The notes below the pieces were generated by a model that was not told the origin of the DNA, did no database searches, and saw only the letters and a list, made by a program, of their open reading frames with translations. Below, piece by piece: positions 636-52,454 of a stretch of DNA of 61,817 nt; within the stretch, counting starts at the first letter, position 1, and every line of letters starts with the position of its first letter. The stretch lies in the NCBI GenBank assembly GCA_009837355.1, contig VXTR01000071.1, forward strand, positions 1-61,817, read 5' to 3'. The position numbers were made by a program, and so were the translations under genes. Origin of the DNA: Chloroflexota bacterium. Lineage in GTDB: Bacteria > Chloroflexota > Dehalococcoidia > Lucifugimonadales > UBA3495.

Positions 636-2141
636 ATGCTGGATACCACGTTGGGAATTGCGACCCTAGTAGTCGCCTGCGCCGTCTTCCTCGTTCTGGG
701 CCTCGCCTACGCCTGGCGACGGCGGCGACAGAGCGTAGAGGACTACACCGTCTCCCGTAATCACGCGCCGACCAACGTAGGCATCGCTACGCTGGTGGCG
801 TCGATGTTCGGCACCTGGGTGCTGATGAGCCCGGGCGAGTCCGGGGCCAACTTCGGCATCATATCGCTGGTGGGCTACGCCTTGGGCATGGCCGGCATTC
901 CGGTGATGTTCATGTTCGTCGGCCCCCGCATCCGGCAGTTGATGCCGAACGGCCACTCAATCACCGAGTACGTCAAGCACCGTTTCGGGCTGGCTCCCTT
1001 TGTCGCTATCGCGGTGGCGATCATCTTTGTCATCGGGATATTCATTACGGCCGAGATGGTTGCCATCACCAACGCCGTGAGCGTACTTACGGGCTCGCCC
1101 AAGTGGGCTACCGCCGTGGCCGTGGGACTGGTGGTAATGGCGTACACCGCTTATGGCGGTCTCCGTGTTTCCATCTACACCGACCGCATCCAGTTCTGGA
1201 TTTTGATTCCGGTTCTGCTGCTACTGCTCATTGTCGCCGCCGTTTTCGTCGGCAACGCCGGAGCGTGGAAAGCGGCCAGCGAGGCGGGCGCACTGTCGGT
1301 GTCGAACTCCGGCAGCTATTTCTTCGCCATCGTTCTCATCATCGGCATCGTAGCCTCCAACGCCTTTCACCCCGGCATGTGGCAGCGGGTGTACACCGTG
1401 GAGAGCCAGCGGGCCCTCAACCGCAGCCTTTGGGGGGCGGCAGCCCTGGCCATTCCCATCACTTTCCTCATGGGTATGGCCGGCATCGCTGCCGTTGGCA
1501 ACGAGTCGGTCGCGCCCTTCGGCTATCCTGAGGTCGCGGTGGCGTTGTTTGCGCTGGCGTCCGACGTGTTCCCGCTGTGGATGCACTTTCTGATGCTGAT
1601 TTGCGCGTTGATGCTGGCGATGAGCACACTGGACACGATGATGAACGGGCTGGCGAGCAACATAGCCGCCGACATGGCCGGCATGAGCATCGGGCGAGGC
1701 ACGCTGATGTGGGTGGCCCGCATCGCGACCATCGTGTTGGCGGTTCCGGCCATAATCGTGGCGACGAAAGCCAACAGCGTTCTTTACGTTTTCCTCGTTG
1801 CCGACCTGATCGGCGCGGCCATAGCGGTGCCCATGCTGGTGGGGCTGTACTCCAGCCGTATGCCCGGCTGGGGCGTGCTGGTGGCCGGCGGAGTCGGCAT
1901 CGTCATCGGGGCGTTGTACTATCCCAAGCCCGACCTGCTGTCGCCGTGGGCGCTCACCGCTCCTGATTGGGCCAACAGCCAAATGCTCTGGGCTTTCGCC
2001 TCGGCGCTGATTATCTCGTCCGCCATCTCGCTGGTTATCATTCTGATCCGGCGCATGGCCGCGCCGTCGCAGGAGTACGACTTCGCCGCTCTGAACGCCG
2101 ACGTTGGTCTTATCGACGAACCGTCTCCGGCGGACGACTAG
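636..2141 (+). CDS. thiV: SSS-family sodium:solute symporter, thiamine/HMP transporter candidate (ThiV-like)
   Basis: The 501-residue protein is almost entirely hydrophobic, with about a dozen membrane segments. It carries the sodium:solute symporter signature YTAYGGLRVSIYTDRIQ near residue 170. The start at 636 is preferred over an in-frame ATG at 609 because GGGAGGT sits just before it. The family imports vitamins, sugars, urea and other solutes with sodium. The substrate assignment comes from the TPP riboswitch and terminator directly upstream: SSS transporters under TPP riboswitches are called ThiV and are linked to uptake of thiamine or its pyrimidine precursor HMP. Substrate choice between thiamine and HMP cannot be read from sequence. 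It is a single-gene unit. Confidence 0.8.
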   Translation: MLDTTLGIATLVVACAVFLVLGLAYAWRRRRQSVEDYTVSRNHAPTNVGIATLVASMFGTWVLMSPGESGANFGIISLVGYALGMAGIPVMFMFVGPRIRQLMPNGHSITEYVKHRFGLAPFVAIAVAIIFVIGIFITAEMVAITNAVSVLTGSPKWATAVAVGLVVMAYTAYGGLRVSIYTDRIQFWILIPVLLLLLIVAAVFVGNAGAWKAASEAGALSVSNSGSYFFAIVLIIGIVASNAFHPGMWQRVYTVESQRALNRSLWGAAALAIPITFLMGMAGIAAVGNESVAPFGYPEVAVALFALASDVFPLWMHFLMLICALMLAMSTLDTMMNGLASNIAADMAGMSIGRGTLMWVARIATIVLAVPAIIVATKANSVLYVFLVADLIGAAIAVPMLVGLYSSRMPGWGVLVAGGVGIVIGALYYPKPDLLSPWALTAPDWANSQMLWAFASALIISSAISLVIILIRRMAAPSQEYDFAALNADVGLIDEPSPADD

Positions 2142-43351: not shown

Positions 43352-43681
43352 CTAGACCAGCGAGGCCCGCCGGCCCAAGGTTATCCCATCCGGCAAAGCA
43401 ATGGTAGCCTTCAGGTTGCGGAACATCAGGAACCGACTCACGGACAGCGACACCTGCTCGGCATAGTCGGCAATGCCGGGAGCCAGCAGCAGTTCGATGT
43501 CGTCCTGCCCGGCGCTCTCGTAAGCGTCCAGATTGCGACGCCGGCGCACGTTGGTATCGACCGATACCTCAACGGACTCGCCGGTTCAACCATTCCAGCA
43601 GATGAGGTCGATCACGGCCCGACCGCCCCGGCTGCGGATGAGCTGGGCTGCTTCCGGTGTTATTTCCAAGCGTGCCGTCAT
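43352..43681 (-). CDS. Putative HesB-like selenoprotein (in-frame TGA read as selenocysteine)
   Basis: One continuous minus-strand frame of 110 codons, interrupted only by a TGA at codon 32 (43586-43588). The first part reads MTARLEITPEAAQLIRSRGG, then AVIDLICWNG, the TGA, TGESVEVSV, and continues to a normal TAG. The ITPEAAQ start and a Cys-x3-(TGA)-Thr-Gly site resemble HesB/IscA-type Fe-S proteins, a family with known bacterial selenoprotein members; this assignment is tentative. Codon use is normal on both sides of the TGA. Immediately after the TGA the mRNA folds into a SECIS-like hairpin. A TATAAT 6 nt before the ATG shows a promoter of its own. The alternative is a pseudogene by a single TGC/TGG-to-TGA change. 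selA, selB, selD and tRNA-Sec are not in the window. Confidence 0.6.
43541..43584 (-). promoter_or_regulatory. Bacterial SECIS-like hairpin directly after the in-frame TGA
   Basis: On the minus-strand mRNA, one base after the TGA, CCGGCG pairs with CGCCGG, CGTT with AACG and GGTATC with GATACC, stacking into a long hairpin. The internal loop is AGTC/TG and GA is a bulge. The apical loop is GGTC, beginning 23 nt after the TGA. Published bSECIS models ask for a G in the first two loop positions and 16-37 nt from TGA to loop; both hold. All 16 outer and inner base pairs are Watson-Crick. Confidence 0.65.
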
Positions 43682-43687
43682 AAGCCA

Positions 43688-43693
43688 ATTATA
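43688..43693 (-). promoter_or_regulatory. -10 element for the TGA-containing gene
   Basis: TATAAT on the minus strand ends 6 nt before the ATG at 43681, the same spacing as at 9022 and 25786. It overlaps the end of yqeK. A leaderless mRNA is expected. Confidence 0.5.
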
Positions 43694-44303
43694 CCCCTGC
43701 CGTCGACTCTGACGCCAACAGCAGCGTGTTCCGCGCCTCAATCGCCGCCGGATGCACCGGGACCCCCTTATCCAGCAGGCGGGTGATGTTCCTGGTGAGG
43801 AACATTATCATCGCAGCGGAGAGGTCATGTTCGGCAAGTTCCTGCAGTTCCGGCTGCCAGGGGTAACGCTTGCGTTTCACCGGGTCCAGCTTGTCAGCCA
43901 GACAGACGATGTGGCCGATGGCGTCGCCGCCGGCAGGGTTGCCGGTGGTATGCCAATAGACAGCGTCGTACAGCTGGGGATGGCTCAGGCCGTCCTCCCG
44001 TTTCAGCAGCTCCGCTCCCACCATGCCGTGCAGCAATTTTGGATAGCTTCGCTCCAGCTCGGTAACCGGCGGCAGGTCGTACTCCTCCATCCGCAGCAGG
44101 TTTTCCACACCGGAGAAATGCTTGGTTGCGTCGTGGGCCAGGGCGGTGAGACCTACGGCATCGGCATCCTGTTCGTGGTTTTCGCACAGGGCGCGGGCAA
44201 TTTGCTCCACACGCTGGCAGTGCTCCACCAGGCCGGGAGGCAAGCGGCGCATCCGGCGATGGATGCGGTCATACACGCGCCCGGGGATTTCAATGGCGGT
44301 CAT
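43689..44303 (-). CDS. HD-domain hydrolase, YqeK-like
   Basis: A 204-residue HD-domain phosphohydrolase. The metal ligands are visible: His28 (GLVEHCQRV), the HD pair His57-Asp58 (LAHDATKHF), a His in LLHGMVGAELL, and an Asp in IVCLADKLDP near 140. This layout matches YqeK, which hydrolyses symmetrical Ap4A to ADP. It lies 3 nt downstream of the HIT-family gene, another dinucleoside-polyphosphate-type hydrolase family, so the two may act together on Ap4A-like alarmones. YqeK is often next to nadD; here nadD is at 48921. Confidence 0.8.
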   Translation of the reverse strand: MTAIEIPGRVYDRIHRRMRRLPPGLVEHCQRVEQIARALCENHEQDADAVGLTALAHDATKHFSGVENLLRMEEYDLPPVTELERSYPKLLHGMVGAELLKREDGLSHPQLYDAVYWHTTGNPAGGDAIGHIVCLADKLDPVKRKRYPWQPELQELAEHDLSAAMIMFLTRNITRLLDKGVPVHPAAIEARNTLLLASESTAGV

Positions 44304-44306
44304 GGA

Positions 44307-44666
44307 TCAGCCCATCTCACCAAGCTCGCGCCCACCCAGCAGGTGCATGTGGGGCCAGGCGATGGTCTGGCCGGCGTCATCGCCGTTGTTGACCACCAAC
44401 CGGTAGCCGCTCAGCGTTACGCCCTCCCGCCGGGCCATCTCCGCCGCGACTACGAACAGGTGCCCCATGATGGCCTCCATGGCCGGGCTGATGTAGTCCA
44501 GCCCGTTGATGGGCATATTGGGGATGATGAGCAGATGCACCGGCGCCTTGGGGTTGATGTCGCGCACCACGAAGCAGCGCTCGTCCCGGTAGATAACGTC
44601 GGGATGCAGCGGGTCGCGGGCCATCGCCGCAAAGGGCGAATTGCGGGCGGGGGTAATGGTGGTCAT
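44307..44666 (-). CDS. HIT-family protein lacking the first His of the HIT motif
   Basis: A 119-residue histidine-triad protein with the expected fold landmarks: FVVRDINPKAPVHLLIIP, LVVNNGDDAGQTI and a terminal LLGGRELGEMG. The triad HxHxH reads W104-P-H106-M-H108, so the first His is replaced by Trp; the catalytic middle and last His remain. HIT proteins hydrolyse nucleoside phosphoramidates or dinucleoside polyphosphates. The start ATG at 44666 lies 22 nt after the acyl-CoA dehydrogenase gene on the same strand. Activity may be altered by the Trp. Confidence 0.82.
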   Translation of the reverse strand: MTTITPARNSPFAAMARDPLHPDVIYRDERCFVVRDINPKAPVHLLIIPNMPINGLDYISPAMEAIMGHLFVVAAEMARREGVTLSGYRLVVNNGDDAGQTIAWPHMHLLGGRELGEMG

Positions 44667-44688: not shown

Positions 44689-45828
44689 CTACGCCGCTTC
44701 AATCTCCTGCAGCGCTACTTCCTTGTGGTCGTGGACGCTGCCGTAGGAAAGCTCCTGCACCTTGGCGCGGCGGGTGTAGAGTTGCAGGTTGTGCTCCATG
44801 GTGAAACCGATGGCCCCGTGGCACTGGTGACCCAGCGAGCAAACCCGCTGGTAGGCTCCGCTGCACCACGCCTTGGCCACGGCAACCTCCCGACGGGCCG
44901 GCTGCCCCTCGGCGATGGCCCAGGCCGCCTGGTAAGCGACTTGCCGCGCGCCCTCAACGTCGGTGGCCATGTTGGCGCAGTGATGCTGCACCGCCTGGAA
45001 ACTGCCCACCGGTCGGCCGAACTGCGTCCGCTGTTTGACGTATTCCACGGTCATGTCCAGCACGGCCTCGGCGCCGCCCACCATCTGCACGCAGTGAGCC
45101 GCCGTCGCCCGGGCCAGCGTCCGCTGGATGATGGGCCAGCCGTTGCCAACCTCGCCCAGCACGGCGTCGCCCGGCACCGACACGTTTTCCAACCGCACCT
45201 CGCACAGGCGCTCGTTGCCGATGGTGCTGACCTGCTCGATGCTCACTCCCGGCGCGTCCGACCGCACCAAGAACAGCGTGATGCCATCCTCCGGGTTGTC
45301 GCCGGCCGGCGCGGTGCGGGCTGCCACGATGATGATGTCGGCGGCGTGGGCATCGGCCACGAACAGCTTGGTGCCGCTGACGACATAGCCGTCGCCGGAC
45401 GCAGTGGCGGTAGTCTCCACACCCCAGGCCTCGGTGGTGGCCGACGGCTCGGTGAGCGCCAGCGTCAGACGCACGGTGCCGGCGCAGACGCCGGTCAGAA
45501 TGTCGCGCTTCTGCTCGTCGCTGCCGGCGTCAAGCACGGTGAGGCCGCCCAGCACCACGGTGGCGAAGAACGGCGCGGGAAGCAATGCCCGGCCCATTTC
45601 CTCGACCAGCACGGCCAGGTCCAGGAACGAACCGCCGGTGCCGCCGTACTGCTCGGGGAAGGGGATGCCCGTCCAGCCCAAGCCGCTGACCTGGCGCCAG
45701 AGGTCTTCGGTAAAGCCCTGCGAGTCTTCTTCCAGTTCGCGTACCAGCGTGAGGGGACATTCCTGCGCCAGGAATTCCCGGGCCGAGTTCTTCAGCATCT
45801 GCTGAATCTCGCTGAGTCCCATGTCCAT
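44689..45828 (-). CDS. Acyl-CoA dehydrogenase
   Basis: A 379-residue flavin acyl-CoA dehydrogenase. Landmarks are GWTGIPFPEQYGGTGGSFLD near residue 48, LALTEPSATTEAWGV (the FAD/substrate loop), GTKLFVADAHAAD, the helical C-terminal domain with QRTQFGRPVGSFQAVQH, and QCHGAIGFTMEHNLQLYTRR. It oxidises an acyl-CoA to the 2-enoyl-CoA, passing electrons to ETF. The ATG at 45828 with GGAG 9 nt upstream is chosen; the frame is open further upstream but not conserved. It is the first gene of the unit with the HIT and YqeK genes. Confidence 0.9.
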   Translation of the reverse strand: MDMGLSEIQQMLKNSAREFLAQECPLTLVRELEEDSQGFTEDLWRQVSGLGWTGIPFPEQYGGTGGSFLDLAVLVEEMGRALLPAPFFATVVLGGLTVLDAGSDEQKRDILTGVCAGTVRLTLALTEPSATTEAWGVETTATASGDGYVVSGTKLFVADAHAADIIIVAARTAPAGDNPEDGITLFLVRSDAPGVSIEQVSTIGNERLCEVRLENVSVPGDAVLGEVGNGWPIIQRTLARATAAHCVQMVGGAEAVLDMTVEYVKQRTQFGRPVGSFQAVQHHCANMATDVEGARQVAYQAAWAIAEGQPARREVAVAKAWCSGAYQRVCSLGHQCHGAIGFTMEHNLQLYTRRAKVQELSYGSVHDHKEVALQEIEAA

Positions 45829-46034
45829 AGGGGCGTGCTCCGGCCGCGGCGGTATCCGGGGCGTGGTCGCCCCGGTCGGCTCCGCCGGGCAAAAAGATGT
45901 GCAAGCAAGCGGGAGCGAGTATAGCGCACCAAGCCGGCGGCGGCAAACGTGGTTCGGCAGTTTGCCGCCGCCTATCACCCCCGTGTAAAATGACGGCGGA
46001 AGTCATCCTTTCGACCGCACCCACGGAGGCCCCA

Positions 46035-52097: not shown

Positions 52098-52454
52098 TCA
52101 GACGGCGAATGACGTGCCGCAGCCGCAGGCTTTCTTGGCGTTGGGATTCTCAAACACGAAACCCTTGCCGTTCAGCCCGTCGGAAAAGTCCAACTGGGTG
52201 CCCACCAGGTAAATGTAGGATTTCTTGTCCACCATCACCTTGACGCCGTACTGCTCCACGATTTTGTCTGACTCCCGCTCCTGGTCGGTTATGGTCAGGT
52301 CGTAGGTGAGGCCGGAGCAGCCGCCGCCTTTGACGGCAACCCGCAGCCCAACGTTGTCGGTGATGCCCTCTTTATCGGCAAAGTACTTGATTTTCTCGGC
52401 GGCCTTTTCCGAAATCTCAACGGTGAGTTCGACGCCGTTCTGGGTAATGGGCAT
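52098..52454 (-). CDS. erpA: A-type iron-sulfur carrier (IscA/ErpA/HesB family)
   Basis: A 118-residue A-type carrier with the three conserved cysteines: GGGCSGLTYDL near residue 46 and CGCGTSF at the C-terminus. It receives Fe-S clusters and delivers them to apoproteins. GGAGGT lies 8 nt before the ATG, and TTGACG/TACAAT promoter boxes sit upstream. Which A-type member it is (IscA, ErpA or SufA) cannot be fixed; no isc or suf operon is nearby. It precedes ygfZ. It differs clearly from the small HesB-like gene at 43352, which lacks the C-terminal CxC. Confidence 0.9.
   Translation of the reverse strand: MPITQNGVELTVEISEKAAEKIKYFADKEGITDNVGLRVAVKGGGCSGLTYDLTITDQERESDKIVEQYGVKVMVDKKSYIYLVGTQLDFSDGLNGKGFVFENPNAKKACGCGTSFAV

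Follow-up and report, generated by a model that had tools for sequence, protein, structure and literature searches.

A predicted selenoprotein gene with a putative HesB/IscA fold and a covarying SECIS hairpin in a Dehalococcoidia genome

Three groups of described proteins lie close to the gene considered here. The HesB-like selenoprotein (TIGR01911) of Methanococcus maripaludis was revealed by labelling with 75Se, and what it does is unclear (PMC11097638). The CC/Se motif family NF041239 (Moor_selen_rel), predicted in Moorella thermoacetica, appears in a 2026 review as a hypothetical protein; the same review gives rules for the bacterial SECIS (bSECIS) element, which concern loop size, G at the first two loop positions, a spacing of 16-37 nt and energy (PMC13188914). 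The A-type Fe-S carriers IscA, SufA and ErpA (PF01521) have three ligand cysteines, the first in a GCSG motif and the others in a C-terminal Cys-Gly-Cys. In this study, a minus-strand gene was analysed in the window, a stretch of 61,817 nucleotides from a Dehalococcoidia assembly of 3.25 Mb (89 contigs, 97% complete). It is predicted to encode a selenoprotein of a kind that is already known and little studied.

The frame (43352..43681, minus strand; 109 codons plus TAG) opens with an ATG at 43681 and closes with a TAG at 43354-43352, and its sole internal TGA is codon 32 (43586..43588, minus strand). Read with the standard code, the locus yields no more than an ORF of 65 aa, starting from a GTG at 43549; ordinary gene finders would truncate this conserved gene. 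The frame, start, codon-32 TGA, TAG and 65-codon GTG call of the initial annotation all match these coordinates. TGA is an ordinary stop in the source genome, where it terminates the adjacent HIT-like and YqgF-like genes. The window protein had no Pfam match at E 1, and an Rfam scan of the locus returned chance-level matches only. When the window was scanned by codon usage for further single-TGA frames, no other convincing candidate emerged; the top hits were neighbours joined over a normal TGA stop, or frames lying opposite genes, and were discarded.

Homologues were sought in 99 genomes of Dehalococcoidia, one of them labelled SAR202 cluster bacterium and the source genome counted in. The gene was carried by 41 of these genomes, representing 17 genera, and all 47 homologue matches contained the in-frame TGA, which goes well past what chance would produce. 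In the alignment of 41 homologues, the Sec32 TGA forms one invariant column. No Cys version of the site was seen among these related carriers (47 matches; 41 aligned sequences), and the order seems to be Sec-only for this family. Distant relatives in other Chloroflexota read CC (L086, L087) or CU (L088) at the site, with the second residue aligned to Sec32, so that Cys homologues at the Sec position do exist. The homologue comparison proposed in the initial annotation therefore returned an invariant TGA with Cys in distant Chloroflexota, rather than the unconserved residue expected of a simple nonsense mutation. Few members were found beyond the order when 400 genomes of the phylum were searched with the NF041239 and A1 profiles, and plasmid records held no homologue. 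Among 13 genomes of the genus, pN/pS was 0.23 upstream of the TGA and 0.26 downstream, which bears out the earlier statement that coding character is the same on either side of it.

The source genome encodes SelB (E 5e-106), SelA (E 5e-167), a tRNA-Sec with anticodon TCA scoring above the Rfam threshold, and SelD, whose gene likewise contains an in-frame TGA, in the context SHCAG-U-AAK. All four components that the initial annotation had named for checking, including the selB and tRNA-Sec whose absence would have spoken for a nonsense mutation, are thus present. Because SelA occurs in nearly all relatives, its co-occurrence with the gene carried no information. SelD (L013, about 1478-1600, plus strand) is likewise predicted to be a selenoprotein, and a strong hairpin of -19.6 kcal/mol follows its TGA.

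A putative SECIS element lies directly downstream of codon 32. The sequence GAGGTATCGGTCGATACC 3' of the TGA encodes Glu-Val-Ser-Val-Asp-Thr and folds as a 6-bp apical hairpin, GGUAUC-GGUC-GAUACC (43553..43568, minus strand), with the GGUC loop located 23 nt downstream of the UGA. The whole element predicted for this species covers 44 nt (43541..43584, minus strand), has lower stems CCGGCG/CGCCGG and CGUU/AACG, and reaches -21.9 kcal/mol, with a z of -1.97 that is modest by energy alone. The hairpin satisfies the published bSECIS rules (PMC13188914). It resembles the consensus bSECIS model of the fdhF type in its apical loop (N-G-U-N with its closing pair), in G at loop positions 1 and 2, and in its distance of 23 nt from the UGA; unlike that model, the lower part of the stem differs among species and is not conserved.

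The consensus of this hairpin across homologues is GGURUC-GGUC-GAYACC; 28 of 40 sequences share its 18 bases (GAGGTATCGGTCGATACC) without a change, and the apical GU is conserved in 40/40. The remaining hairpins vary in matched pairs (GTA/GAT to GTG/GAC; TCG/GTC to TCC/GTG or TCA/GTT), with two-sided changes in three of seven pairs, and all of these paired changes are silent at the protein level. The covariation score was 0.405, against 0.148 in shuffles, one in 500 of which reached it, and was at most 0.13 when the partners were slid. Silent substitution per site was 0.033 in the hairpin codons vs 0.45 elsewhere. The hairpin is built from several codons that the window seldom uses (GTA, 12% of Val; TCG, 14% of Ser; GAT, 9% of Asp), and the exact combination of TGA and hairpin is found at a single place in the genome. 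The locus is thus a clean case of a SECIS element demonstrated by silent covariation.

These observations bear on two simpler readings of codon 32. A real stop, produced by a nonsense mutation, a sequencing error or gene decay, has in its favour only that TGA terminates neighbouring genes normally; the presence of the TGA in every homologue across 17 genera already refutes this reading, the equal purifying selection on both sides excludes a decaying gene, and the covarying hairpin 3' of the TGA also contradicts a stop. The probability left to it is close to nil. Plain readthrough, or reassignment of UGA to another amino acid such as Trp, would account for an in-frame TGA and for nothing more. 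It is opposed by the complete Sec machinery of the genome, a hairpin of published SECIS type, homologues with Cys at the aligned site and neighbouring genes that end in TGA, and is scarcely more credible than a stop. With complete Sec machinery, an invariant UGA, a covarying SECIS and Cys homologues, the selenoprotein reading of the initial annotation is upheld, and we put the probability that 43681..43352 (minus strand) is a genuine selenoprotein gene at about 95%. By established selenocysteine biology, SelB with Sec-tRNA(Sec), the parts for which are encoded in the genome, would recognise the hairpin just downstream of UGA32. Selenocysteine would then be inserted at this codon to yield a selenoprotein of 109 aa.

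The AlphaFold model of the window protein (pLDDT 86.7) is predicted to adopt the HesB/IscA (IscA/SufA) fold. Its best Foldseek match was SufA (E 7e-4, probability 1.00), and the top ten were mostly IscA-type proteins; structure comparison gave Z 9.3 to SufA and 8.5 to IscA, with unrelated rows at 2.8 or less. Profile-profile comparison with ErpA/IscA-type proteins (E 1.1e-5) placed Sec32 on the Cys of GGCSG, i.e., at the first IscA cluster-ligand cysteine, where GCSG becomes GUTG. The product would be a single domain of this fold, with Sec where IscA has its first ligand cysteine out of three. The fold and this GUTG-on-GCSG correspondence are shared with the A-type carriers, whereas identity to them is 7-15% and the C-terminal Cys-Gly-Cys is missing; across the 41 members, only the first ligand position is kept, as Sec.

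By profile matching, the nearest named family is NF041239, not TIGR01911. NF041239, the 'CC/Se motif family (seleno)protein' profile, was matched over nearly its whole length by 41/41 members, and the motif position of its alignment is occupied by Cys or Sec, the second residue of the CC/CU relatives falling on Sec32. Orthologues with the same gene order exceed the curated cut-off of 40 bits (L055, 45.9; L059, 42.1), as do two relatives (L082, 49.6; L078, 42.1), whereas the window protein, at 32.2 bits, falls short of it. The present proteins also differ from the family in that the residue before Sec is Gly or Ser instead of Cys, and in the apparent restriction of the order to Sec. This comparison connects the HesB/IscA fold with a CC/Se selenoprotein family listed as hypothetical, and the function of the family thereby becomes testable.

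The remaining alternative is that the gene encodes a true TIGR01911 HesB-like selenoprotein, or an A-type Fe-S carrier with Sec as a cluster ligand. In two other Dehalococcoidia genomes, HesB-like (UxGP) frames (L114:282-577, plus strand; L115:272-553, minus strand) have a TGA in frame where IscA has its cysteine, and read GHGUGGPQLG and GMGUNGPNIG. The window protein shares their fold and has its Sec at the same point; in addition, IscA_HesB_Se was matched by 5 of the 41 members and PF01521, weakly, by 14. TIGR01911, however, gave no match at E 1 with the window protein and was not among the families matched by the 41 members; the proline of its UxGP motif is lacking here, where UTGE (U-x-G) is read instead, as are the C-terminal Cys-Gly-Cys ligands, and the window contains a separate ErpA-type carrier gene (52101-52454, minus strand) whose product has the motifs GGCSG and CGCG. 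This alternative is therefore unlikely. The term 'HesB-like' in the initial annotation proves right for the fold and distant homology, and wrong for the named family, since an IscA-type fold is combined with no TIGR01911 match.

Returning to the diverged, NF041239-related selenoprotein favoured here, the 41 aligned sequences show conservation concentrated around Sec, at G19, G20, D25, L26, U32, G34 and E38-T43; the last of these stretches also forms the SECIS, and its conservation is thus partly RNA-driven. A Cys-x3-Sec redox pair (CWNG-(TGA)-TG) had been proposed, but it is rejected as a family feature because Cys28 occurs in 22 of the 41 members, and nine of the 41 contain no Cys besides Sec. 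As Sec replaces the first ligand Cys and the C-terminal Cys-Gly-Cys is missing, a role as an ordinary Fe-S carrier is improbable. The selenol, standing alone, would most probably serve in one of two ways, as a nucleophile in redox chemistry or in metal/chalcogen handling as a ligand, at perhaps even odds; its partner may be a thiol of an outside molecule, a metal or a second subunit. The neighbouring genes hint weakly at its role.

The gene is the last of a cluster that begins with an acyl-CoA dehydrogenase-like gene (44689..45978, minus strand) and continues through a HIT-family gene (44307..44666, minus strand), both named from sequence and placed in the cluster by synteny, to a YqeK-like HD hydrolase gene (43689..44303, minus strand; TIGR00488, E 7e-24). 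This order is conserved in most carriers, where the YqeK-like gene is kept as the upstream neighbour; in some, other sequence is inserted ahead of the selenoprotein gene. A bolder proposal is that the order has its own, apparently Sec-only branch of HesB/IscA proteins, with a lone selenol whose undescribed chemistry would be linked to the YqeK-HIT-acyl-CoA dehydrogenase cluster, and that the CC/Se family as a whole is diverged HesB; we regard this as tentative and rather less probable than otherwise. If true, such chemistry would mean metal, sulfur or selenium handling, or electrophile reduction, without a conserved Cys partner.

The gene had also been credited with its own -10 box at the 6-nt spacing of a leaderless promoter. 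A TATAAT is indeed present at 43693-43688, six bases before the ATG, where it overlaps the yqeK stop codon. Its spacing to the ATG is not kept in congeners, so that a conserved leaderless promoter is unsupported and the idea was dropped. Outside the genus, a Shine-Dalgarno sequence of GAGG type precedes the start in most relatives.

Several further genes related to this family or fold were observed. In the source genome, an IscA-like protein (L110:308-682, plus strand) lacks the first ligand Cys and carries a long Cys/Gly-rich C-terminal tail. In several genomes of the same taxonomic family, a tandem second copy, its frame likewise containing a TGA at this site, lies directly 3' of the selenoprotein gene (L057:1889-2245 and L061:1886-2242, plus strand; L056:1254-1430, L063:1176-1430 and L062 near 1031, minus strand). 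These copies have a different hairpin, with EISVST in place of EVSVDT, and in L056 and L063 the frame looks truncated. A homologue with the TGA and the same SECIS was also found on a contig labelled as an Actinomycetes MAG (L038:2995-3309, plus strand), which could reflect transfer or mis-binning.
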